NCBI GenBank assembly: GCA_021018995.1 | Contig: CM037598.1 | Location: 76,774,671 to 76,838,670 of the forward strand | Length of the DNA: 64,000 nt | Direction of reading: 5' to 3' | Source of the DNA: Chloranthus sessilifolius | Lineage: Eukaryota > Streptophyta > Magnoliopsida > Chloranthales > Chloranthaceae | In this document: positions 6,291 through 53,580 of the stretch, one piece after another | How positions within the stretch are numbered: position 1 is the stretch's first letter | Layout of the letters: each line of letters opens with the position of its first letter | Made by a program: the position numbers and the translations under genes | Notes under the pieces: generated by a model | The model's database searches: none | What the model was told of the DNA's origin: nothing | Seen by the model: the letters and a program-made list of their open reading frames with translations, nothing else

Positions 6291-7240
6291 CTGAAATGGA
6301 CCACAAAAGATGCATATTAATGACACCCCCACAAAACCATCAGATTGTTAAATCAGACAGAAGAATACAGAGCAAGTATCCACATGTGAAATATTGTGGC
6401 ATTTAATAGAACAGGGCACGGGAGACGGAGTTGTTGACAAAACAGGTGAAAATAGCATTTTAAGACCAAACACAAGGCCAGGAAAAGTCCATATGTAGAA
6501 GGTCCTGAATAATATAAAAGAAAATGCAAAGAAATAAAAAGGACTAAAAGATTAGAGCCATGATATGCAAATTAGTAAATATGGCATCCCTGACTTTTGA
6601 AAGTTAAAAACAAATAATAAAAATAAAGTAAATGCAAAAGTCGGGATTATTATTTTGAAACATATGGGTAACAGAGCATCCAAGTCAAGGCATCAGGCAC
6701 ATTTCATATATACAACCATAGGGTTCCAATGACTAGTAAAGAATCCAAAATACATAAAATAAACTGAAACAGTTACAGGAAGCCTAAAAGCTCATTGAAA
6801 TAACTAGCAATCCTCAACATTGATGCCTCTACCTTCACCCAAACAAAATGCATAATTTTTTTTGGCTCCAACCACAACACCTAAGAATCAGCAAAACAAC
6901 CTCCACTCATAAACAACAAATTCAAAATTAAGGATAAGAGTTGAAGCCATGCTGCACAACATTCGCAGCTGGAAACGACAAAAAAACAGAGAGGAGCTCT
7001 TAACATGAAGCAGCTACAAGTACCTAATCAGAGGCAAATACCTTGATTTCCTCATAATGATAGGTAGGAACAGTATTTTAGTATTTTTCTAAATTTGGAT
7101 CCTCTGCATGGATGAACTAAATTTTTCGAATGAGAAAGAATAATTCAACCCATAATTTAGCTGATAACAATATGGAAAAAAAAACGAAGAATAAACAAAG
7201 TGTACACCAGAGCTAAAACAGGTCCATTAGGCAACCATAA
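6291..7240. other. No gene recognised
   Basis: AT-rich DNA. I looked for the upstream helicase exons (ATP-binding and DEAH motifs) on the minus strand and did not see them. Confidence 0.5.
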
Positions 7241-7249
7241 TGAAGGACT

Positions 7250-7631
7250 CCCAAAATTCATCATCCCCACCCAAGCTTTTAGAAACAACCCCAAAATTTT
7301 GTATGACCCTCTTGTAATGATTCCTCAATCCCCAACCCAGACTGCTACGGGTCACACCCCAAATGCCTAAACTGTTGTCAATCATACCTCCCCTACCCAG
7401 CCTGTGAATCAGTCCTTAAGGACAAGCCCAACATTTGAACACACTAACCCTGTTCCTCAATCTACTGCTGCCTCAAAATCCACACCCTTTATCCCAGGTC
7501 TTGAACCACTGTTGCCCAGATATCCAGACACCCTACCCTTGGTTCTGAATCCAATTATGCTCTCAACCATATATCTTCTGTCCCCAACCATGTTCCACTG
7601 CCCCATAATAGTCCCACTGCCATTAATATAG
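7250..7631 (+). pseudogene. Pro/Ser/Thr-rich reading frame, unknown
   Basis: One frame stays mostly open for about 125 codons and is rich in Pro, Thr and Ser (for example TSPTQPVNQSLRTSP), with a stop near 7367. The composition differs from the surrounding AT-rich DNA and resembles a low-complexity linker or a transposon gag-like segment. I recognise no domain and it may not be coding. Confidence 0.25.
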
Positions 7632-7992
7632 TCCCCACTGACATATGATTGATGGCGCTAGACTCCCAAGTGATTGATGGTGTTGGTCAGGTGGTGACGA
7701 TGACATTTCTTTATGATTAGATAGTATAATTAAAATGTATTTGAGGTTGGCATGCATAAGAGTTGTAGTATATGACATATTGGGGGCAATGCTTGTATAA
7801 TGTATGGACCCTCTGAAAATTTGCAATGGGAACCTGTACCTTGCAAACGATTATGAAAATGTGCAATGGGAAGCCTGTGCCTTCGCGTGGAGAAACCCCT
7901 ATTTCATTTGCCAACAATTTAGAACCAAATAATCCATACTGTTATTAGCTATCTTGAGTTCTAACTAGATATAAAAAATGAACAAGTACATA

Positions 7993-8342
7993 TAGGCCTA
8001 TCAACGAGTTGGGTCGGCCCCATACCTGATCCAACCCAATATTTTACTGGGTCGGGGTCGGGCATGAGACACCCTACCTAATCTCCGAGTCGGGTCGACC
8101 AAAATGTTTTGTCGGGTCGGGTATTTGCTCGGTCGGGTTAGGTCGACCCAACCCAAAGATTAGGTTTTTTTTGTAAAAAATGTACACAAAAATAGGGGTT
8201 TTTTACCGAGTCGGGTTGGATTCTCCGGTTCAAGTAGGTTTTTTGGGTCAGGTCGGGTGCAATACTAGGTGGGGTAGAGCATTTGCAGTTTTCTTATTGG
8301 GCAGCCAAATTTTTTACCTGATCCGACCCATTGATAGTCCCA
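7993..8342. mobile_element. 350-bp hAT-like MITE with 8-bp target duplication
   Basis: The terminal inverted repeats are TAGGCCTATCAA (7993-8004) and, read from the other end, TGGGACTATCAA (8342-8331). The 8-bp duplication AGTACATA flanks it at 7985-7992 and 8343-8350. The interior is packed with GGGTCGG on one side and CCGACCC on the other. An 8-bp duplication is typical of hAT transposases. It has no coding capacity. Confidence 0.85.
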
Positions 8343-8399
8343 AGTACATACAAATCAGGAATACATTCTATTACACAATTTAGGCATCTAAATGTGTTA

Positions 8400-9890
8400 A
8401 AAGAGCAAAAAGAGTGAAAAAAAGCAAACTCCATGCTTTGTACAGAGCAAGATCTCAGTCTAGAGAACACAAAGTGGTAAAACCATTCTCATACTAGGTT
8501 GTATGCATGCAGCCACCAGACAAATCAGAGATTTGAAACCCTACGCTCAAGACTAAACCTTTGCCATATTCCGGTCTTGCTATGTATCTATTTGCCGAAA
8601 TCATTGTTATATTCTACGGGAAGAGTCAGAGCCCTAGGGACTGAGGACCCAATCAATAGGTGGTTTCCTTAAAACTAGATATATGGTATACTAACATTGA
8701 AGTGCCTAAAATAACTCAAGTTTCAGATAAATGTGACTGCTGATACTGCAATGCATTGAAGTATCAATTGTAGCAAACAACAACACTAAAGTTCTAGACA
8801 CAATGACCTCAGGAAATTGGACTTTTAAACAGACAATAGAAGAATCCACCAAAATGGACCAAGACAACAACCAAGAACAATTCACAAATCATTTCTTCTC
8901 AATATTAACTTGGAACTGCCAATGAGTTCACAAACTGTTGACACTTCTTGATGGCACTTTAGGCATTCGGATTCTCTCACTTCTTAGTTATGACAAGCAT
9001 GATTGTACGAGTGCAAAACAAGAAAACTGAGTAAACGACCAAAATAAACTTAATTACCTATTAGGCAAAATTGGCAGTAATAATTCTGTAGAGCTCAAAA
9101 TAAAACTCAAATAAGCGTAAGCTTAATAGGTGTAGGAAAAAGTTGCATTAGCACCTCCAAAGAGGTCAAAATACAACCCAAACAAGTATAATGTTTGAGA
9201 TGGTAGACAAAGTTGCATTGGTAACTCTGGGGAAACCAAATGAAAAAAGATGGCTTTCCAAACCTTTCCAACGATTCCAATAGGCAATGTTAGTTATTAA
9301 GGAAAACTGTTGTGAACCTGAGAACGGTTTAGCGTCTGGGTCCTATTTCAGGGGTTGTTCCATGCCAAGGGATTAAAGAGTTCTGATTGCAAACAAATAT
9401 GTGCTTTGCAGCGGTTTCATTAACACCAAAAAATTGTAGACCATGAAATATTATGTTCCACAAACTTCATGGACAAATGTTGCTAACTAAAATAGCATAT
9501 AATAACAGAAAAATACCCCCAAACTATGAATTCGATTGCCTAGAACTGAATAGCTAAAAATTCATGAAGCAAAACAAACAACTATTCATATAATTCGAAT
9601 CACAGAAAACCTTCATTGGAATCCAAAGCTCGTTAAGCTTTGAGATTCAACTGTAAAACGAACGAGGCATCATGATCCACGTTGGACCTAGAAAATCCAG
9701 TGCTATTACTACTCGATCTGAAGATCTGCGGCTGCTGCTGGCGCACACCTCTCAAAAACAGCATCTTCTCATGTGGGGAAAAAAACCTAAAATCCACAGC
9801 TCTGATCAGAAGTCGACAATAAAAATAGAAGACGCCATTAGAGATTTACGACCTCGGCAGAAAACAAACCGCTTCATCGCAAACCTAATC
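8400..9890. other. No gene recognised
   Basis: No convincing coding frame, splice pattern or repeat boundary was found in either strand. Confidence 0.5.
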
Positions 9891-9904
9891 AATTCAGCTC
9901 AAAT

Positions 9905-10115
9905 CGATTTTGATCGTCTCAAACCCTAGCTCAAACACTTCGTCTCAAACCCTAGCTCACCAATTTTGATCGTCTCAATCCCTCGCTCAAACCGCTTCGT
10001 CTCAAACCCTAGCTCAAACCGATTTCGATCGTCTCAAACCCTAGGACAAACCGATTTCGATCGTCTCAAACCCTAGCTCCAACCATTTCCATCATCTCAA
10101 ACCCAGCCATCGTCT
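9905..10115. repeat. Tandem repeat with core cgtctcaaaccctagctcaaacc
   Basis: About six imperfect units of 30-36 bp share the core cgtctcaaaccctag. The unit contains the telomere-box-like aaaccctag. It lies just left of the CACTA end at 10484, whose subterminal repeats also carry gtctc, so it may belong to the same element. Confidence 0.65.
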
Positions 10116-10189
10116 CGAAACTTTTCTTATTTTTGAAGTCTTCACAGCGTACATCAGAATAAATAGATTTTTTTTAACTTTGTGCGAGA

Positions 10190-10484
10190 TGTTGGCCAGA
10201 TGAGGTCGCATTTGCAACATCTTTGAGACGGCTTAACCCGTCTCTATTGGTGTGAAAAGGGACTTTTAGAGACAGTTATGTGTGTGGTCTCAGAAGTTTT
10301 GACCCATAGATGGATCACGAAAACTTATGGAGACAGCTCCATAGGTCAAAGCCGTCTCCAATAGTCTCTAATAATAACAATAGAGACAATTTTTAGAAAG
10401 GTCGTCTTCAATAACCTCATTATTGGAGACAACATCCAAAGCCGTCTCTAAAATCTGTATCCAAAAGTCTTATTTTTTGTAGTG
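10190..10484. mobile_element. Right end of a CACTA-type element
   Basis: The stretch ends tattttttgtagtg at 10484. Read inward it gives CACTACAAAAAATAAGAC, the hallmark CACTA terminus. Inside are repeated subterminal motifs (gccgtctc, gagacggc, attggagac), arranged as in CACTA elements, where they bind the transposase. The matching left end was not found. Confidence 0.75.
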
Positions 10485-10636
10485 ACTCTTGTGGAAAAGT
10501 TGGAGCAGGGCCATAGACTTCACTCGGTCCACAACCCAATCATTTAAGAGAAAGTGGGGGCCTAAATTTCTTACCTATCTGCACATCTAAGTATCAAGTA
10601 TCAACATTATCCATCCATCATGTGGCCACCTCATCG

Positions 10637-10925
10637 AGCAATGGTCAGGTCCAACTGGTTGAACCTGATTTTGTGTTCAACCAATTTTGCAGCCTTCGCT
10701 AGATGAGATTTTTTATTGAGATTTTTGATTGAATGTTATTATCTTGTAAAAAAGGAAAATGTGAAAATTCAGAATCTTTATCAAATGGCTGCAAAACTGG
10801 TTGAACACCAGGTTCAACCAGTTGTACCTTATCATTGCCCAATGAATACTCCACTATTCCGCCGATTCAAACCTCAAAGTGGCCGATTTTTCTTTAATTG
10901 GACTCCACTGGTCAAACCATTTTAA
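10637..10925. repeat. CTGGTTGAACC-rich repeat
   Basis: ctggttgaacc and its complement ggttcaaccag recur at about 10653, 10798 and 10812, ending with actggtcaaacc near 10907. A related tract is at 52210-52380. This looks like a dispersed repeat family; the ends were not resolved. Confidence 0.45.
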
Positions 10926-11160
10926 ATGGTTGTTGATGTTGTAATATTTATGTGCATAACAACTGCTGTACAAACAAGTATACAACATTTTATTGGAAAA
11001 ATGTATACAGCATCTTGATTTTAATTCTCTCATGGTTTTCTAGAGTAAATGTTTGCCCTTTCATTCTTTGAACTAGAGTATTGCCATCTGACTCTTTATG
11101 TTTTATTTTTCCGTTAATGAATTCTTAGTACTGATAAAGTAGAGTGTTGCTTTCTGACAG

Positions 11161-46002: not shown

Positions 46003-46375
46003 TTAAATGTACATGTCCAAATACAGTAGTATGACATGGTAGCCATGAACATGGGTGCAACCAGTCCATTCAATAGTGTCACATTTTGGAGGTTGGAGTG
46101 ATGGACTGGTTGCACCCATAAGATGCTTTACCGACTTGAACTTCTCTCCCTTACGGGAGAAGAGTGGGACTGTTTGAATCCTTGATCTCAACTCTAATAA
46201 GGGTAGACATGTCTGGCCGCCAAAATCGTCCTTCTCAGACATGTCATATTCATGCACTTCAATCCGAAGCAAAGTCAATTCCGGAACTCTTCTTCCCAAA
46301 CGGCCGGCGCCCAGTCATCCTCAATTGCCCTTGTTCTCTTCATGATGGAGTCAGCTAGCACTTCAGCAATCCCAA
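46003..46375 (-). pseudogene. Phosphoinositide phospholipase C, C2-domain exon, frameshifted
   Basis: The minus strand reads VGIAEVLADSIMKRTRAIED and [11 protein letters not shown]. After a small deletion and frame change near 46290 come [28 protein letters not shown] and [20 protein letters not shown]. This is the C-terminal C2 domain of plant PI-PLC, which binds calcium and membranes. The usual family ending is replaced after SVKHLM by unrelated codons derived from the hairpin at 46051-46119. It is the 3' end of a fragment that includes 46873-46953 and 47052-47204. Confidence 0.88.
46051..46119. repeat. Hairpin with 19-bp perfect arms
   Basis: atgggtgcaaccagtccat (46051-46069) and its exact complement (46101-46119) flank a 31-base loop. 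It lies just beyond the PI-PLC fragment. Confidence 0.92.
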
Positions 46376-46660
46376 CTTGTATAAGATTTATTAGTATCGA
46401 CACTTAGCAAGGGCCCCTAAGTAATTTATATCAAGATATCAATATTAGTATCAGCCAATATGGATACAGTATCACCAATAACGAATTGGTCCCTTTAAAA
46501 AATACAAAAAATTGTATTGGTCAGTATCGCCAATAATTAACCCTATACTGTGTACAGATATCGATACCATCCGATGCCTTTATCGGGTTGGAATCGATAT
46601 TGGTTCTTGACAAAACTGATGCGTATCAGTATCGGCCGAGATTTCGTACCATGATTTGTA
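46376..46660. repeat. tatcggccgat/cagtatcgcc repeat inside the PI-PLC fragment
   Basis: Repeated gatatcaatattagtatcagcc and cagtatcgcc words of the 41557 family fill the space where the intron between the two PI-PLC exons should be, probably a later insertion. Confidence 0.45.
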
Positions 46661-46872
46661 TATTTCCTTTCCTTGCAGACTTCCCCCATTCAATTTACTG
46701 GGAGGTTATTGTTGGTATAACTTTTCCAAATCATGCAAATAAAATCAATTTACGCAAGGGGGATGCATGGTATTGGGTAACCGGATGTACAAGCCTATGG
46801 TTCATTAAGGGAAAAATGATGAGTCAAAGACCAAAACTTGTTCAGACCAACAGTGATTTCTTATCATCTTAC

Positions 46873-46953
46873 CCTTGTATAGAAGTCTGGTGGGGGAGTA
46901 TGCATCGAAGTGTGTCTTACCGAAATCAAAACACCATCCATCGCCCATATATA
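46873..46953 (-). pseudogene. PI-PLC exon, VYMGDGW region
   Basis: After ggcgaaag the minus strand reads VYMGDGWCFDFGKTHFDAYS, then a C run with one base too many shifts the frame in the expected Pro-Pro-Asp-Phe-Tyr. A gtaaga donor follows at 46872. The motif links the catalytic Y region to the C2 domain in plant PI-PLC. Confidence 0.85.
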
Positions 46954-47051
46954 CTTTCGCCTATTTAGTGACATGACAACCCATGTAAATTAGATAAGCT
47001 AAACAAAATAATTACGTACCCGATAGAGTTGGTTGTGTGGGCAAAATTTAC

Positions 47052-47204
47052 CTTCAATGTTATCTTCACTGGTAATTTTGCTTTAGGATCAAAGACCTCA
47101 TTATGTGGACCGCACTTCATAAGAAAATCAGGTTTTTTCACATAACCACACCCACCATTAGCTTCGAACATGCCATGCATCAACCAGAGTGACCTTCCAT
47201 ACCC
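47052..47204 (-). pseudogene. PI-PLC exon, end of the catalytic Y region, intact
   Basis: Between tttgtgcag and aag|gtaaat, 51 codons without a stop include [28 protein letters not shown] and [13 protein letters not shown]. This is the family's signature stretch at the end of the catalytic barrel that cleaves phosphatidylinositol 4,5-bisphosphate. The preceding exons (X domain with the catalytic His residues) are absent to the right, so no working enzyme is encoded. Confidence 0.9.
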
Positions 47205-48120
47205 CTGCACAAATATGATGTGCATCAGTCTTAGCACAGGCAAATTTATGAGAAATCATATCCCCTGAACCATGGATTTTATTAAATCTTCCGTTAAGGA
47301 TTGTCCAATTTACATGCTTTTGCATAAATTAGAACTCAAATTTCTAGCTTAAGAAAAACATCATGCAACAGTCTCGACCTAGCAATGCCGATACAATTTA
47401 TGCAACCATTTGTGTAAGCTTAAGCAACTGATTATGGTGGAGTCCGAAAACATTTTCTTGAATCATGTATAATTATTTGAACTTCAAGCTGCATTCATGA
47501 ATTGGGAAGAAGGTCCATTTTGTTCCTTTACATGAAAGTACATAATGGCAAGAAGAACATAAAGGAATGAGTATTTACAAAGTAGCGCATATCCCGGACA
47601 AGCAAATAAACATCCCCCCTAAGTTCACAACTCGTCTGCAACTTATATTTACCTTGTGTAAACACCAAAATCTTTTTGCACAACTCCAATAGAACTGAAC
47701 AAGGTGTCAAACTCGGAATCGGTACTGGGTAATGGTCCAATCTTGGACCGATACAATTTCTGCCGATACTGAAACCATGATTTTTTTGAAAAAAAAATGA
47801 TTGTAATCTTTAGGAATTTGGAAGAGCACTTATAGATTCTATGCTTCTGTAATCTTTCGGTGGAGGGTTGAACACAATTTCAAGCATAGGCAAAAGGAAG
47901 ACAGTGACATTTCTATTGACAACAGCATAGAGTGACCCAACAGGCATCAGTCTGTTGGATTGCAAACATGGCAATCCTATTTGTACAAATGATGCAGATA
48001 ACAGGTTTAGCCCACACTTTGATTAACAACTTATATTAAGACACTAGAAATTATTGTTGTTTGGAATCTTATGTTTAACAAGTAGGCCCTTAGGTTCTAG
48101 GCATGCCAGCTCCCTTTTTT
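47205..48120. other. No gene recognised
   Basis: Upstream PI-PLC exons were sought on the minus strand and not seen. A gataccg-type tract lies near 47700-47785. Confidence 0.45.
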
Positions 48121-48125
48121 GTTTC

Positions 48126-48345
48126 TTTTTTTTTTTTCGATAAAACCGCTTGAGGTTGACGGGTACTCACCCTTCTATTAAATCAAATAAAATGAAATGA
48201 AATACAAGAGGTAAAAACTTTGGAAATCAAAAAGAAGAATCTATTTGAGGGTGAAATGAGAGATATTTGTTCCACCACAGAGAATTATTTGGTTCTTGCA
48301 TAAGGAAATAGAGTACAAGAACAAAATCTAATCCAACAAACCTAG
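48126..48345 (-). mobile_element. LINE 3' end remnant
   Basis: A 12-bp A tail (T on plus, 48126-48137) follows, on the minus strand, a 3' UTR ending cctcaagcggttttatcg. That resembles the end of the LINE at 21846 (ctcaagctaacttatcg), so both belong to one family. No coding part is recognisable. Confidence 0.6.
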
Positions 48346-48358
48346 TTTTTTTGTAGTG
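48346..48358. repeat. CACTA-like terminus
   Basis: tttttttgtagtg reads CACTACAAAAAAA inverted. No partner end was identified. Confidence 0.4.
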
Positions 48359-48499
48359 TTAGATTCTTCTTCTACCATATTCATCACATTTGTAAACCAA
48401 ACGTCCTTACAATGTAAACAGATTCCTCTTACTCATTACAATTTTATATCAATCAGTTCAAATGGCATACTTGAGTAATGAGCAGAAGGGCTGTTGAAG

Positions 48500-48775
48500 G
48501 AATGGGCGCGTCAGGTTGAGCTAAAATTTAGGTTTGCCTGGCCCTTTGTGCTCATCAAAGATAAACCAGTCACCCCGACCAGACATGATGGGTCAAGCAT
48601 CCTGAACGCAAAAACTAGGTCAGGTTGGGTAGATTAGAGCAGAAACAGGCCACAGATCAAAACACCCTAAATCCCAAAAAATCTGCCCAACCAGACCCCA
48701 ACCAAGCTCGGTCCAATACTTTGAGCCTGAACTGACCTAACGGGTCAAGTTTATTTGCCCCAGCCGATATAATGA
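48500..48775. repeat. GGGTCAAG/ACCAGACC-rich tract
   Basis: Style of the GGGTCGG MITE family (caggttgggtagatt, ctgacctaacgggtcaag). Ends not resolved. Confidence 0.4.
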
Positions 48776-49055
48776 CCCCACTAGTTAATAGCCCTACTCA
48801 TGATGCTAACGGTGCAGCCACATTCTGCAATGGTGTTGGATGTAAATTTTATGCTTAATTCGTAGTAAATTAAAATCACAAAGCATATTTTACCTTTTAC
48901 AAATGTATGTATAAGCATGCATGTTTCGTGTCTGAATGCATCTAGTGAACAACTGTGCTGAAATGGCCATGTTAAAACTTTCAAATCATGGTTGTGTAAA
49001 TCATTTGATTGTGTGTTAACAAACAACATATGACAATTAATGTATACATATATAG

Positions 49056-49136
49056 TTGCCTTCCATCCTCTGGAGGAGTGTTGAAAGAGCATATGTACTT
49101 GCCTTCCATCTTCTGGAGGAGCGTTGAAGGAGCATA
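49056..49136. repeat. 43-bp tandem duplication
   Basis: ttgccttccatc(c/t)tctggaggag(t/c)gttgaa begins at 49056 and 49099. Confidence 0.85.
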
Positions 49137-49141
49137 AAACC

Positions 49142-49217
49142 TTAGGGTTTCATCCTTTTGCCTCTGATTTCATGTAGTTTCTCCTGAGCAGCAGCCAGCT
49201 CGGTTGTTCGGATAATT
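49142..49217 (-). pseudogene. Coding-like exon IIRTTELAAAQEKLHE, not recognised
   Basis: After ttacagtgcag the minus strand reads IIRTTELAAAQEKLHEIRGK then RMKP and a TAA. The helical, charged composition looks like part of a coiled-coil protein. I cannot assign a family. It lies in the gene-fragment cluster and is probably another captured exon. Confidence 0.35.
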
Positions 49218-49530
49218 CTGCACTGTAAAGTCAAATGGAGCAGGAAGGTTTCCGTCAATCATCAACTTTTGAGCTTGACATGCATTAAGAGGAGAAAGAC
49301 TTCAAAAGCTCACCTAGTTTCTAAGCTCCAAAATGCGAGGTTCTTTCTCCAAGTTTTCCCCTATTCCACACACATTATATATAATTATTAGCATTAATTC
49401 TACAATGAACTGCCTAGCAAGTATAGAGGTATAGCAATCAAACCAAATGATGGAAGCAAGATACATATTGAGAATTGCCTTAACATGTGAATGGTGGAAT
49501 GAACCTGAATGTAAATCCTATTAGTATTGC

Positions 49531-49587
49531 CGCTACCAAAAATTGCCTTAACAGCAAGTGCTGCTAAAACACCTTATTTTTGTAGTG
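49531..49587. mobile_element. Very short CACTA-like element, 57 bp
   Basis: The left end cgctaccaaaaattgcc and the right end ttatttttgtagtg form an imperfect CACTA-like inverted repeat, directly abutting the dihydropyrimidinase exon. Confidence 0.35.
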
Positions 49588-49679
49588 GCAGGTCAGAGAG
49601 TTATTGGAGAAGCCTTAGTTTCTGGGTTGGTCCTTGATGATTCTGGAATTTGGGACCCTGTCTTCGCCACTGCAGCAAA
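49588..49679 (+). pseudogene. Dihydropyrimidinase exon A
   Basis: The frame reads GQRVIGEALVSGLVLDDSGI then WDPVFATAAK. This matches the plant dihydropyrimidinase (pyrimidine degradation) stretch GE.....L.LDDS..WDP just after the active-site region. The expected donor is gcaag instead of gtaag (49680), a GC-type or mutated splice site. Its 5' edge abuts a CACTA-like end. It continues in 49775-49856 and 50041-50133. Confidence 0.8.
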
Positions 49680-49774
49680 GCAAGAATCCTTATACATTTT
49701 TGAGTTATTTTCTTTGCACTTGTTCAATAATTAAAAGTTTATGCCAAGCATAATGTGACCATTGCATGTTATAG

Positions 49775-49856
49775 GTATGTCATGATGAATCCCCCAATAA
49801 GGAAAGCAAGACACAATAGATCCCTTCAAGGTGCCCTCTCAGGAGGAGTTTTGCAG
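49775..49856 (+). pseudogene. Dihydropyrimidinase exon B, intact
   Basis: Between gttatag and cag|gtttct the exon reads YVMMNPPIRKARHNRSLQGA then LSGGVLQ, the conserved Y.M.PP.R.......L...L..G.LQ of dihydropyrimidinases, with no stop. Confidence 0.85.
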
Positions 49857-50040
49857 GTTTCTCTCTTTAGACTAGATTTGGTTTATATCTCATATGCTCT
49901 ACACAAATATATAATAGAGCCCTTCATATATTAACTGTTTTTTGTATATCAAGTTCTACTAAATCCGGGATGTTGGGTAATATTTTATATATATTGTGGC
50001 TCACATCTTCCTTTTGATTTACACTTTTTCTGATGTGCAG

Positions 50041-50133
50041 CTTGTAGGAATGGATCATTGTGGATTCAACTCCCAAAGCTTTGGGTGTTGATGACTTCCG
50101 AAAAATTCCAAATGGTGTTAATGGTACGATGAA
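50041..50133 (+). pseudogene. Dihydropyrimidinase exon C, frameshifted
   Basis: After ctgatgtgcag it reads LVGMDHC (the family's DHC motif, whose Asp helps bind the active-site metals), then shifts frame to DSTPKALGVDDFRKIPNGVN. The family continues past G with a catalytic-barrel helix, but here the sequence becomes unrelated. It is the end of a three-exon fragment. The enzyme opens dihydrouracil and dihydrothymine rings; this copy cannot. Confidence 0.85.
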
Positions 50134-51487
50134 CTTTTGGTTGTCTATTGTGCACAGTCATGGCCTGCTTGAAATGCTGCTACATACTGCTTTCACATGT
50201 ATTTATTTTATTGAAATTCTCTCTATATATATCATTGTGGATTCTACTTACCTGTCTGGAAATATTTTTGAATAGGTTTTCGTTCTCTTCTATAGTCTTG
50301 CTTTGAAAGTATAGGAAGACCAGTGAAAATGGACTTGTGTATTGAGAAAGTAGGGTGAATTTTGTTTTTAGAGGTTTTTATTGGGCTTTTGGATAGTTTT
50401 GGGTATGATAACTGAGTGTTGTTCGCAGACAACTGTAAAGTTCAAATTCTCTGTGGGCCGAGAAAATAAAATTTTCTTTTACCATATGAATTCCATGAAT
50501 TTTTTATAGTCAAATGTGGTGATTGAAGAAAGTTATGGATGAAATGCAATTCTTTGGTCTTCTATACTTTTAACTGAATTCATGCATATCCTTTTTCTAT
50601 GGGATGAAATGCAATTCTTTGGTCTTATGTGCTCCTAACTGAATTTTTCTTAGAGCACCCGACTAAGTCCCTGAGTACGCACAACACCCCACATCACATG
50701 TACCATTCAGTAGTTGCAAAAGGCCAGCAAAGGGTTGGATTCGGCCATCTCATCAATCGGCCAAACCATTAGCTTCTTGAAAAATATGTATAATGAAGTG
50801 TTATCCTCGGTCACACACTTAATTTTATTCAAGGGGATTCTTTTTTACAAATAGTCAAAAAGTGATTATCATGGATTGCTAAACCATAATGAAACCATTG
50901 AAAGAAGAAGGAATTTAGTTTACGGGGAATCGTAACATAAAGATGAACATTAAAAAAAAATTATTAACAAGCATAAATTAAGTATATATCTATAAAAGAT
51001 TACAAACAAAAGAATAGCATTCACCAGCCATATCAACCATCTGAAATCCAGGCTAAGTGAGCGTGGGAGGGGCTCACTATATGATAGCAGAGGAAGATAT
51101 ATAATTCTTATGGCGACGAATTGAACTGGCTAACTATAACAATGCAGAAGTTAAGGCTCTGTGGACAAGCCTATCCTTACTCCATAGGATAAACTATGGA
51201 TTGAGATAGACTCAAACACTATTTGATGGCTTGGACATCAATCTAATCCACCTGGGAAACATTTAACACTATTATATGGTTTTGTGGCTTGAATTATCCA
51301 CCTTATGAATTTTCATCCAGAGGGGTCATGTTACAAGCTTTAAATAAACCAATGAGCTTTCAAGTTAACACATTATTTAAGCATAAGAGGCCCACAGCAG
51401 AGAAAAACAACAAATTGTGATCTAAGGGAAGCGGGAAGAAATAGACAAAAATGTTAGCTAGGACAAACGAAAATCAAGAAATTGTAC
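50134..51487. other. No gene recognised
   Basis: AT-rich DNA between the plus-strand dihydropyrimidinase and minus-strand threonyl-tRNA synthetase fragments. No further exons of either were seen. Confidence 0.45.
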
Positions 51488-51578
51488 CTTCAACCTCTTT
51501 AACTCTAGAAAAGAAACCCCCGTAAACTCTTTACAGACTTTCACGGTCTGATTTCCCTCTCCAATAGGACGATGAAGC
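51488..51578 (-). pseudogene. Threonyl-tRNA synthetase exon 3, with TAA
   Basis: After atctccag the minus strand reads ASSSYWRGKSDRESL, a TAA at 51531-51533 where Gln (CAA) is expected, then RVYG. An extra G in a G run shifts the frame before SFLELKRLK and a gtacaa donor. The A.S..YWRG....E.LQR.YG pattern is the end of the editing/linker region of cytosolic-type threonyl-tRNA synthetases. It is the third consecutive exon of this fragment. Confidence 0.85.
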
Positions 51579-51659
51579 CTGGAGATTTCAACTAGTAATA
51601 TTAATGGCACATACATATAAATAGCTCAAATCTAGCCTAATTGTCCCATATGACCTTAC

Positions 51660-51788
51660 CTTTAAACAAGCAAATGCTTTTACAAAAGATGTATTTGGTA
51701 TCTGTGGTCCGCGACAAAGATCGATTAAAGGCCCACATCTGTAAACAGTGATGGTCTTGTCTTCAAGCAACTCATTAATTCTTTCAAC
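51660..51788 (-). pseudogene. Threonyl-tRNA synthetase exon 2, intact
   Basis: 43 codons between tttgtgcag and aag|gtaagg: [20 protein letters not shown] then [20 protein letters not shown] and CLK. YRCGPL.DLC.GPHIP is a defining threonyl-tRNA synthetase motif in the editing domain, where the Cys takes part in hydrolysis of mischarged Ser-tRNA. The usual His of GPHIP is Gln here. Confidence 0.92.
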
Positions 51789-52035
51789 CTGCACAAAAAA
51801 GTTGTGAAATATACAATGTAATATATTATATATGCTGCCACTCCTTTTATAAATATTAAAAGAGTGAAATTCTTTGAAATCCTAGAAGGTTGTTCAAAAA
51901 AAGAACATTTAATTTGCAATCAATTATAAAGGTAAATGCCCATGGGGGAAAGATTATGTCAAAAGGCAGTGATGTCACAAAAGGAATGCTACATATATTG
52001 GGGATTTATAAGATGCAATATCCAACACCATTTAC

Positions 52036-52110
52036 CTTAAAATTATTCTCAGCAAACATCTTGAGAGCTTGTTCTCTCGATACTTCAATGCGCTCAAAGG
52101 GTTGTTTTTC
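52036..52110 (-). pseudogene. Threonyl-tRNA synthetase exon 1 of the fragment, intact
   Basis: 25 codons between ttttacag and aag|gtaaat: EKQPFERIEVSREQALKMFA then ENNFK. This is the E..PFERIEV....A..MF..N.FK stretch just before exon 2 in the family. Phases agree across all three exons. The N-terminal and catalytic exons are not present. Confidence 0.9.
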
Positions 52111-52194
52111 CTGTAAAATCAAGGACACGGGCAACATATAACTAACTGTCTAGGAGCAAGAAAATACATCTAACAGGAAACATTTACTGAAAAT

Positions 52195-52390
52195 AAATAA
52201 AATTATTTGTATGGCATAACCAGATTGACCAGTTTGATCCAGTTAAACTGGTACAACTTACAGAGAAGCCAATCCCAATACCCAGAACCATATAAATAGC
52301 TCTTAACAGACCAGCCAATTCAATGCCCTTTCTAGGAGTTGACCATTTTATAAGGTTTTCACTTGACCAGTTCAGCAGCAATTTACTTTC
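52195..52390. repeat. gaccagtttgatccagttaaactgg repeat, about 190 bp
   Basis: The left side tgaccagtttgatccag and the right side cttgaccagttcagc are roughly inverted. Related to 10637-10925. It sits in the region where the upstream synthetase intron would be, probably an insertion. Confidence 0.4.
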
Positions 52391-52884
52391 GAAAAAAAAC
52401 TTTAATGGCTTTTGCTAGATCAGAGTTTTGTCAAACTTTAAGTCCATCTTTTCAATAAAATAATTCTTGAGCTACAACTTTAGGTCTAGGGTAACTTCTA
52501 CTCTTCCTTTAGTTACCACTCACCTCTAATCATACTCCTTTACCTTAGAATAACCACAACTTCATGAAAAATTCATTGAGTTATTTTAGCAAACATATTA
52601 TATGCAGGCTATCGGTCCATAAGAAGACTTCATCCAAAAATGATAAATATTATTTCTTATATCAACCATTAATCTTAATTAACAAACTAAACATCAAATT
52701 TAACCCAAATTGATCAGATGATGCTTAGCACAAGAGTATAGAAAATAAAAATAAATCAAACAAATAAATAAGCTTTCTAACTTAGAAAAAAAATTATCAA
52801 AATTGAAGATGAATCTTGAACCTAGTAAACCCTCAAATTAAAATTTCTGAAACCTCAAAAAAACCCTAGATATCAAATAGAAAC

Positions 52885-52985
52885 TTACAATAGGAGATTG
52901 AGGCAGATACGAGGCGATTCCGATCGGGGAAAGAGCGCAAACCACTCGCGCTCTCTGCAACTAATTAGGTTTCGAAGCACAGGTC
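52885..52985 (-). promoter_or_regulatory. 5'UTR-like exon with gtaagt donor
   Basis: The minus strand reads a G/C-rich, untranslated-looking stretch (gagagcgcgagtggtttgcg) and then tcctattgtaagtttct, a good donor followed by an intron-like AT-rich region. It resembles a non-coding first exon, possibly of the synthetase gene. Inferred only from composition. Confidence 0.3.
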
Positions 52986-53034
52986 CGATGTATTTTATCT
53001 TGCCTTCTTCAACTAGTTTCTTGAGTTCTCCAAT
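52982..53034 (-). pseudogene. Aldo-keto reductase exon fragment
   Basis: After ttttgaag the minus strand reads IGELKKLVEEGKIKYIG, the strongly conserved stretch of plant NADPH-dependent aldo-keto reductases (auxin-induced/perakine reductase-like), where it normally continues with LSEAS. Here the sequence changes abruptly right after YIG into the 5'UTR-like piece at 52885, so the join is a breakpoint. Confidence 0.75.
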
Positions 53035-53169
53035 CTTCAAAAGAAAGACAAATGTTAGAAAATATGACAAAAAATAGGGAAAACATATATGATTTTTTAT
53101 AGTATGAGAGAGCGCCAACCACTCTCATCGATTGAAATTGATGGAAACCTAATCGATTTCTCTTTAAAT

Positions 53170-53216
53170 ATGGCTCTACTGCTTCCAGGATCCACAGTTA
53201 AAAGATGCAACCCGAT
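53170..53216 (-). pseudogene. Probable WRKY group IIb second exon fragment
   Basis: After ggttttggcag the minus strand reads IGLHLLTVDPGSSRA. Group IIb WRKY proteins have an N-terminal motif TGL.LLTANT.S near the end of their second exon. It is shortly followed by AKR-intron-like sequence, so the fragment is cut short. Confidence 0.45.
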
Positions 53217-53336
53217 CTGCCAAAACCAAAGTAAAATCAAATGATCTCTAAAAGCTCTGTGTAATTGAATAAACAAATCCACCAAAAATAAAATTGAAAA
53301 ATTAAAAATACGTGATTCAATTTCTTATGTTAACAC

Positions 53337-53454
53337 TGGAATCTCGCTTAGGCTTGTCTTTGATTTCGCGAACGCCTTTGGATCTTGGAGCGTCGACTCG
53401 TCTTCGATCTTCAGAGAAGAAATCCATCACTTCGATGGTGTTACGTCGATCCAT
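53337..53454 (-). pseudogene. Probable WRKY group IIb first exon, with ATG
   Basis: From ATG at 53454 the minus strand reads MDRRNTIEVMDFFSEDRRRV then DAPRSKGVREIKDKPKRDSS. The EV.DFFS motif opens many group IIb WRKY transcription factors. The WRKY DNA-binding domain itself is missing. The exon is open, with a donor near 53336. It follows a promoter-like region and could be the 5' end of a chimeric transcript with the AKR and synthetase exons. Confidence 0.5.
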
Positions 53455-53580
53455 CTAGATAGAGAAAATGACTAAAGGAGGTTGGGTTATGAGAGAGGGA
53501 TTTAGGGTTTGAGTGAGGATTTGCGCGAGGGTCCCGATTGAGAGAGAAAATGGGTTGAGAGAGAACAGACATATATAGAG
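53455..53580 (-). promoter_or_regulatory. Promoter-like region and pyrimidine-rich leader
   Basis: On the minus strand a TATA-like ctatatatg (about 53570-53578) is followed about 115 bp later by the ATG at 53454. Between them is a CT-rich leader containing aaaccctaaat, typical of plant 5' UTRs. Confidence 0.45.

Follow-up and report, generated by a model that had tools for sequence, protein, structure and literature searches.

Introduction

Pack-MULEs are non-autonomous transposons with long Mutator terminal inverted repeats (TIRs) and a 9-bp target duplication, which capture exon-intron fragments of host genes at the DNA level. The cited sections of PMC1947982 describe Tgm-Express1 of soybean, a 5.7-kb CACTA element, as a carrier of exonic and intronic segments from five unrelated host genes. 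In the neighbour-fusion model for Pack-TYPE elements, adjacent TIR insertions move as one by way of their external TIRs and acquire host DNA, the inner TIRs being mutated or deleted, as the cited sections of PMC8903248 and PMC13317346 relate from Catoni et al. 2019. According to the former source, as far as it is cited here, it is the maize Pack-CACTA elements that hold the most distinct loci (PMC8903248). Here we report a mosaic of PI-PLC, dihydropyrimidinase, threonyl-tRNA synthetase, aldo-keto reductase and WRKY gene fragments in a 64-kb stretch of the Chloranthus sessilifolius genome (assembly GCA_021018995.1, contig CM037598.1), hereafter the window. The region is very probably one copy, truncated on the right, of a Pack-CACTA transposon that is non-autonomous, occurs in several copies and was assembled stepwise by nested insertion and joint mobilisation.

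Like Tgm-Express1 in the cited sections, the element is of the CACTA type and carries five gene fragments with their introns; unlike it, it comprises other genes in another element, and Tgm-Express1 sits in intron 2 of F3H and has had its chimeric transcripts sequenced (PMC1947982), whereas the copy in the window lacks a right end and is known from sequence alone. With Pack-TYPE elements it shares a non-autonomous TIR structure, host DNA and joint movement, proposed here in nested form. It differs from them in keeping inner right ends at two junctions, of which one has both a target-site trinucleotide and unoccupied relatives, and in that the insertion would be nested, with the left part of the receiving block left behind. 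Capture of exon-intron fragments at the DNA level by a non-autonomous TIR transposon is common to Pack-MULEs and this element, whose TIRs are 12 bp long and of CACTA type and whose duplication is 3 bp. No report of this element was noticed in the literature searched, which covered few subscription journals. Multi-gene CACTA carriers are already known; here the scars are unusually legible.

Sequences and methods

The window comprises C15:76774671-76838670 in a genome of 2.17 Gb; positions within it carry the prefix w, and C with a number denotes a contig of the same genome. Searching the genome with the synthetase part gave 20 matches, window included, and 10 stretches (10-26 kb each) around such matches were aligned to the window. 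Other copies of the mosaic element are termed C5a (C5:15.73-15.75 Mb), C15b (C15:94.16 Mb) and C14a (C14:31.79-31.81 Mb). Block limits within the element are the ends of matches at other loci, and exon limits, both in the divergence comparisons and for the synthetase, were set by eye. Profile searches covered 12 selected pieces (10 in Pfam, 8 in NCBIfam) rather than all frames.

Ends and copies of the carrier element

The element starts at w45522, where the window reads CACTACAAAAAAA. Its left TIR, CACTACAAAAAA, is an exact match at w45522-45533 (plus strand), the window having 7 sites with at most 1 mismatch where 1.1 are expected. The adjoining left subterminal region (w45534-46011, plus strand) has CCGACGG subterminal repeats, with TACGCCGACGG in both orientations and an (AT)n run at about w45820-45898; 9 of the 11 window matches to TACGCCGACGG (at most 2 mismatches) fall within it, against 1.9 expected for the entire window. 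This region is common to the window and a locus at C8:140.36 Mb (L033). The right side is truncated at about w53688, at the limit of a right subterminal region (w53469-53688, minus strand) that includes a TATA-like stretch. The window matches C14a up to this point, about 24 bp before the terminus, which in other members reads ...TTTTTGTAGTG.

The complete copy is C5a, which is 7,506 bp long, starts with CACTACAAAAAAAAAGACCTACGCC, ends with TATTTTTTGTAGTG and has the 12-bp inverted repeat at both termini; AGG flanks it on each side as a 3-bp target-site duplication. It also aligns from w45522, at 74% across the subterminal repeats. Since C5a has CACTA ends and an AGG/AGG duplication, and the left end is kept in the window, the carrier is a CACTA element. 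The left TIR pattern CACTACAAAAAAN{0,4}GACCTACGCC occurs 82 times in the genome, compared with 0 for the reversed control; the window's own left end is one base off the pattern and so lies outside the 82.

Nearly the whole mosaic is present in C5a and C15b (w45898/45925 to w53641, minus w49652-49712 and w50162-50691). The C14 copy holds w49503-53688, minus about 80 bp and plus an insert, at a distance of 4.8 kb from w47859-49508; no PI-PLC match was found in it among the 40 scored PI-PLC matches, and the other blocks are there. Identity for C15b and C14a is 94.7-95.2% (pieces of more than 400 columns, gaps excluded). The same combination, which a first-pass annotation of the window had proposed to look for, is therefore multi-copy, being whole on C5 and C15 and lacking the PI-PLC exons on C14.

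No stop-to-stop open reading frame (ORF) of at least 150 amino acids occurs in w35302-56108, in keeping with a non-autonomous element. Transposase_21 scored above its cut-off at all 150 scored places (the best 150 of 1,763 candidates), none of which has been linked to these TIRs. With CACTA TIRs and a 3-bp duplication (in C5a), host gene fragments with introns and several copies, the element belongs with the Pack-CACTA transposons.

The first-pass annotation had placed the mosaic at w46003-53580 and found no ends of a carrier. The feature extends from w45522 to about w53688, its left end lying 480 bp outside that range and its right terminus being lost in the window. A Helitron, a Pack-type transposon and filler-DNA repair had been offered as origins; the Pack-type origin stands, with CACTA as the superfamily on the evidence of the C5a TIRs and 3-bp duplication, and the other two do not. 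Helitrons have no TIRs and no target duplication, and end in a 5' TC and a 3' hairpin plus CTRR. They commonly carry exon-intron fragments of several genes, but the inverted CACTA ends and 3-bp target duplication of C5a leave Helitron-mediated capture a negligible chance; for the outer carrier it was rejected on these ends, and the Helitron termini themselves were not scanned for. A Mutator (Pack-MULE) origin was rejected on the 12-bp CACTA TIR and 3-bp duplication of C5a. The introns reported in the first pass are present and align with those of the gene loci, and a retrocopy origin was rejected on this ground.

A local patchwork, arising from repeated filler-DNA repair or from assembly joins, would account for short stretches without an assigned source and for the left junction (w46012-46118), where filler occurs together with an inverted repeat. 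It is nonetheless highly improbable, since the same blocks recur in the same order on C5 and C15, and all but PI-PLC on C14, which also argues against the assembly joins that the first pass had named as an alternative. Filler-DNA repair may still account for the left filler. That filler (w46012-46116) lies between the left subterminal region and PI-PLC, and w46006-46105 is also found at C9:105402286 (94%). An 18-bp inverted repeat at w46052-46118 (DNA fold z = -6.2) extends to the PI-PLC breakpoint and is foreign to the PI-PLC gene.

Internal termini and a proposed assembly history

Two old CACTA right ends lie inside the element in direct orientation, at the block junctions w48358 and w49587, and no CACTA left end occurs inside it among the CACTA-end sites listed for the window. 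The first of these scars (scar 1, w48339-48358, plus strand) ends ...CTAGTTTTTTTGTAGTG and is followed by a trinucleotide at w48359-48361. In C5a and C15b the junction reads GTAGTG-TCA-GATTC, and the unoccupied relatives L046 (C2:46.291 Mb), L047 (C2:17.544 Mb) and L054 read GGTTT-TCA-GATTC. The body of the next block, block B (w48362-49576), is found at 7 other loci without the left part, and all 7 listed matches start at w48361. Scar 1 is on this sequence evidence read as the right-side trace of a CACTA insertion that duplicated TCA.

The 21-base end of scar 1 (at most 1 mismatch) occurs at 6 places, namely the window, C5a, C15b, C14a, C8:95731030 and C11:83692942, and its reversed control at 1. 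At C11:83692942 a left TIR of the window's family lies 3.8 kb off, oriented as in one element. Taking two free places, 82 left ends, a distance of 10 kb, a genome of 2.17 Gb and a factor of one half for orientation, we estimate that such a coincidence has a chance of about 4 in 10,000. This suggests that the scar 1 right end and this left TIR pair elsewhere.

Scar 2 (TTTTTGTAGTG, w49577-49587, plus strand) adjoins the dihydropyrimidinase 3' splice site (GCAG). The window, C5a, C15b, L046 and L047 read GTAGTG-GCA-GGTCAG here, and the uninterrupted dihydropyrimidinase intron on C7 reads CTCT-GCA-GGTCAG. The outer CACTA element, its copies, both scars and the unoccupied sites are thereby read directly from the assembly.

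For the growth of the element we propose a history in which the order of events, the standing of B as an element of its own and the origin of the transposase are what we infer. Element A, extending from a left end at w45522 through the PI-PLC fragment to a right end at w48358, would have landed in block B, which has a CACTA right end of its own (w49587) next to the dihydropyrimidinase intron/exon border. Transposase, assumed to have come from autonomous CACTA elements (the transposase domain is abundant in the genome), would have skipped the inner right ends and used the left end of A together with a distant outer right end. The latter would derive from an element with the synthetase, aldo-keto reductase and WRKY pieces, and everything between would have moved together. 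The inner right ends would stay as scars, the left part of B would be left behind, and the gene fragments would be passengers, decaying neutrally. Since right ends are kept inside and left ends are not, with different blocks on either side, insertion of A into B followed by joint transposition would be the simplest history; and because the TCA of scar 1 has unoccupied relatives, growth by nested insertion and joint mobilisation appears most likely.

Alternatively, fragments could have been captured one by one in a Pack-CACTA element through gap repair or template switching, the internal GTAGTG motifs being later, unrelated small CACTA insertions. Small elements of this kind do exist nearby, as a 142-bp CACTA miniature inverted-repeat transposable element at w55359-55500 has both ends and a TCA/TCA target duplication. 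Moreover, the 70-bp stretch ending at the scar 2 terminus (w49518-49587) is repeated in 14 match rows (13 others at 96-99%, one more at 86%). Insertion into a finished element would, however, leave both ends, with the same captured block on each side, whereas scars 1 and 2 are right ends only, are flanked by different blocks and lie exactly at block junctions. One-by-one capture is on balance unlikely.

Origin of the gene fragments

The first-pass annotation had read three PI-PLC exons (minus strand), three dihydropyrimidinase exons (plus), three threonyl-tRNA synthetase exons (minus), one aldo-keto reductase exon (minus) and WRKY-like first exons (minus). These assignments were borne out, that of the aldo-keto reductase weakly. 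Its proposed alignment to parental genes gave nearest loci for PI-PLC, synthetase, WRKY and dihydropyrimidinase and did not reach a source for the aldo-keto reductase. The statement that exon order and phase are kept needs correction as to phase, which is not preserved throughout, as the frameshifts and the altered splice donor below attest.

The PI-PLC 3' fragment (w46117-47805, minus strand) comprises the Y-domain, KVYMGDGW and C2 exons with introns, and matches Pfam PI-PLC-Y (E=4.5e-6) and C2 (E=0.011), each under Pfam's curated score. It is 93% identical to the locus at C2:128.516 Mb (C2:128516412, L032), which reads as an intact PI-PLC 3' end and runs on beyond the breakpoint through an open C terminus to a stop (LLMRFEFVSTNR*). 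A second block of this locus (w47815-48338; C2:128529560-128530088, 93%) lies 11.4 kb from the first in the genome, on the same strand. In the window the C2 exon has lost bases and is frameshifted, as is the KVYMGDGW exon; the C2 exon is open in the gene. At L033 the left end, with a mutated TIR, meets PI-PLC at a point about 20 bp further along the gene compared with the window, and the homology runs past w47805 into sequence common with the PI-PLC gene locus. L033 may be an earlier stage of element A, or a separate capture.

The dihydropyrimidinase fragment (w49588-50224, plus strand) has three exons with introns, the third frameshifted, and matches PDB 3dc8 (5.1e-10). A more distant relative at C7:115743860 (C7:115.744 Mb) has all three exons in frame (84% and 82%); closer matches exist (89-95%), and two of them (L046, L047) have the same block-B junction. 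The stretch that follows (w50225-50747) lies mostly inside w50162-50691, which is in C14a and not in C5a and C15b.

The threonyl-tRNA synthetase fragment with its introns (w50748-52474, minus strand; exons at about w52037-52111, 51661-51789 and 51488-51567) matches Pfam tRNA_SAD (1.7e-9), TIGR00418 (6.9e-4) and PDB 1nyq (7.5e-11). The source-like locus at C2:165.81 Mb matches w50748-52474, its blastn match to the fragment being at 93.5%. Five TIGR00418 matches stand in gene order at C2:165.810-165.826 Mb (profile positions 78-493); the first falls within the captured part and the other four past it, and the matches listed include none upstream of profile position 78. Two of the five contain a stop, one of these covering captured exons together with introns; as cut by eye, the captured exons are open. 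They are also open in the window and C14a, and one exon is interrupted by a stop in both C5a and C15b. A synthetase gene at C2:12.01-12.08 Mb was rejected as the source, its exon stretch (L065) having no blastn match to the fragment.

Within the fragment, a 79-bp piece (w50973-51051) recurs at 94-100% in 11 match rows, and at its position about 1.74 kb of extra DNA starts in the C2 synthetase locus. Four of its matches lie about 5 kb from places matching w49102-49397 (72%), and both may belong to one larger repeat.

A second CACTA family carries an overlapping piece of the C2:165.81 Mb locus. C12a and C12b (C12:87.63 and 87.56 Mb) are complete elements, 6,577 and 6,682 bp long and flanked by ATT/ATT, and their ends (CACTACAAAATCTGTC...) differ from those of the window family. 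The ends of C4a resemble theirs, with unmatched flanks (TAA/ACA). C12a and C12b are near-identical (L017-L020), lie at a distance of 64 kb from each other and have their ATT flanks in common; because the surrounding DNA aligns too, the segment seems duplicated. On the C2 stretch, the window group covers 7071-10524 and C12b 9454-11008. In a tree of 10 rows of the shared segment (the C3a and C4a rows being shorter), the window group of 4 rows splits off at 100/100, the C2 locus lies between, and the other elements group at 83/86. Two captures of one donor would be the easier reading, and the tree fits it; one capture trimmed in two ways is possible.

A stretch common to C5a, C15b and C14a (w52475-52879) leads to the aldo-keto reductase block (w52880-53148, minus strand), which has one short exon at about w52984-53040. 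The exon matches perakine reductase weakly (E=4.3e-4 across 18 residues) and has no Pfam match.

The WRKY fragment (w53149-53468, minus strand) consists of a 14-bp leader, exon 1 with ATG, intron 1 and most of exon 2. It is 87% identical (280/322 columns) to the 5' end of a gene at C7:1.581 Mb (C7:1581077-1581394), whose exon 1 (MDRRNTIEEMDFFSEDRRR...) matches that of the window and whose WRKY domain, at C7:1586012, follows after 4.9 kb on the same strand, as would be expected for its direction. Exon 3 of this gene resembles the part of group IIb WRKY proteins that contains the leucine zipper. The WRKY exon of the window itself had no NCBIfam match. Its exon 1 splice donor is AT, not GT, and the ATG is lost in C5a and C15b. 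The promoter-like region noted in the first pass is not a WRKY promoter: WRKY homology stops 14 bp before the ATG, and beyond it lies the right end of the transposon.

The right-end query gave 43 matches, the best 40 being scored of 97 candidates, and these at first sight resembled WRKY genes. Among the 40 places, C7:1.581 Mb alone has one of the 108 WRKY-domain matches within 50 kb. Of five other right-end places read in part, three (L053, L062, L063) terminate with a CACTA right end, the homology at L061 (C8) is lost before any terminus, and L059 (C4) has WRKY-exon homology and no CACTA end in the stretch read; some share of the matches is transposon. Partial WRKY-domain matches with two TGA codons lie at C1:49333531, C3:45763747 and C13:80441390, each 4.34-4.35 kb from a left TIR of the window's CACTA family (3 of the 14 such places checked), and may represent a further Pack-CACTA subfamily that carries a WRKY exon.

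Sequence decay and coding potential

For exons and the remaining sequence respectively, the divergence between the window and C5a is 0.074 and 0.053 in PI-PLC and 0.035 and 0.057 in the synthetase; between C5a and C15b it is 0.025 and 0.012, and 0.028 and 0.014. Exons are the more divergent part in 4 of the 6 pairs compared for PI-PLC and in 7 of the 15 for the synthetase. In view of the frameshifts, the stops, the lost start codon and the similar divergence of exons and introns, a protein function is unlikely, and the sequences give no good sign of a conserved chimeric protein.

The right-end region, which includes the TATA-like stretch, precedes the WRKY, aldo-keto reductase, synthetase and PI-PLC pieces, which share the minus strand. 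By analogy with Tgm-Express1 (PMC1947982), chimeric sense transcripts running from the right end through these exons are possible.

Other features of the window

ORFs at w392-1597, w34508-35302 and w56108-57409 resemble what we take to be copia-type gag, copia-type RNase H and LINE-type sequence, respectively. At w61924-63578 there are proline-rich open frames in a C-rich stretch, the GC skew being -0.49 in w62001-64000.

Discussion

Several observations weigh against a stepwise-grown Pack-CACTA element. In the window copy the right TIR is missing, so that a target duplication cannot be checked; both ends and the duplication occur in C5a only (1 of 4 copies), C15b has a right end but lacks the left terminus, and the right terminus is mutated in C14a (GTAGC). 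At the scars, the scar 1 trinucleotide is TTA in the window, not TCA, scar 2 in C14a reads GTAGTG-GAA-GGTCAG, not GCA, and the C11 pair is known from motif positions only. No solo element A with PI-PLC and both ends was seen, L033 having a mutated left end and continuing into the gene. The left end of block B was not found, so that B as a whole element is deduced from its right end. How the synthetase, aldo-keto reductase and WRKY pieces were joined is not explained, nor are the junctions at w50225-50747 and w52475-52879. No source was found for the aldo-keto reductase, as no block-matching place coincides with any of the 75 PF00248 matches listed.

Neutral decay is likewise opposed by pairs in which exon divergence is not the higher, namely 2 of 6 for PI-PLC (C5a and C15b, each with the gene) and 8 of 15 for the synthetase (the window with C15b, C5a, C14a and the gene; the gene with C15b, C5a, C14a and C12a). 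The gene is one member of seven among these 10, and selection on the gene copy itself could be the cause. The three without it, all synthetase pairs, are window-C15b (0.039/0.052), window-C5a (0.035/0.057) and window-C14a (0.050/0.050), and the window-to-element synthetase pairs have 10-14 exon differences each.

A tentative extension, which we hold to be rather less probable than not, is that fragments accrete by pairing the ends of different CACTA families, here the left end of A with a right end of the WRKY family across the right end of B, with certain host genes acting as repeat donors. As to the donors, overlapping pieces of the synthetase locus, cut at different breakpoints, occur in two CACTA families whose ends differ; WRKY pieces may likewise occur in more than one CACTA subfamily. 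If this is true, the captured genes would depend on the landing preference of CACTA elements, and successive inner right ends would record the order of capture.

Conclusions

The locus is a warning for annotation, as one transposon could be called as pieces of PI-PLC, dihydropyrimidinase, synthetase and WRKY genes. Multi-gene capture by TIR transposons is still mostly inferred; with its inner termini, a target trinucleotide and unoccupied sites, this element makes the neighbour-fusion model checkable base by base.

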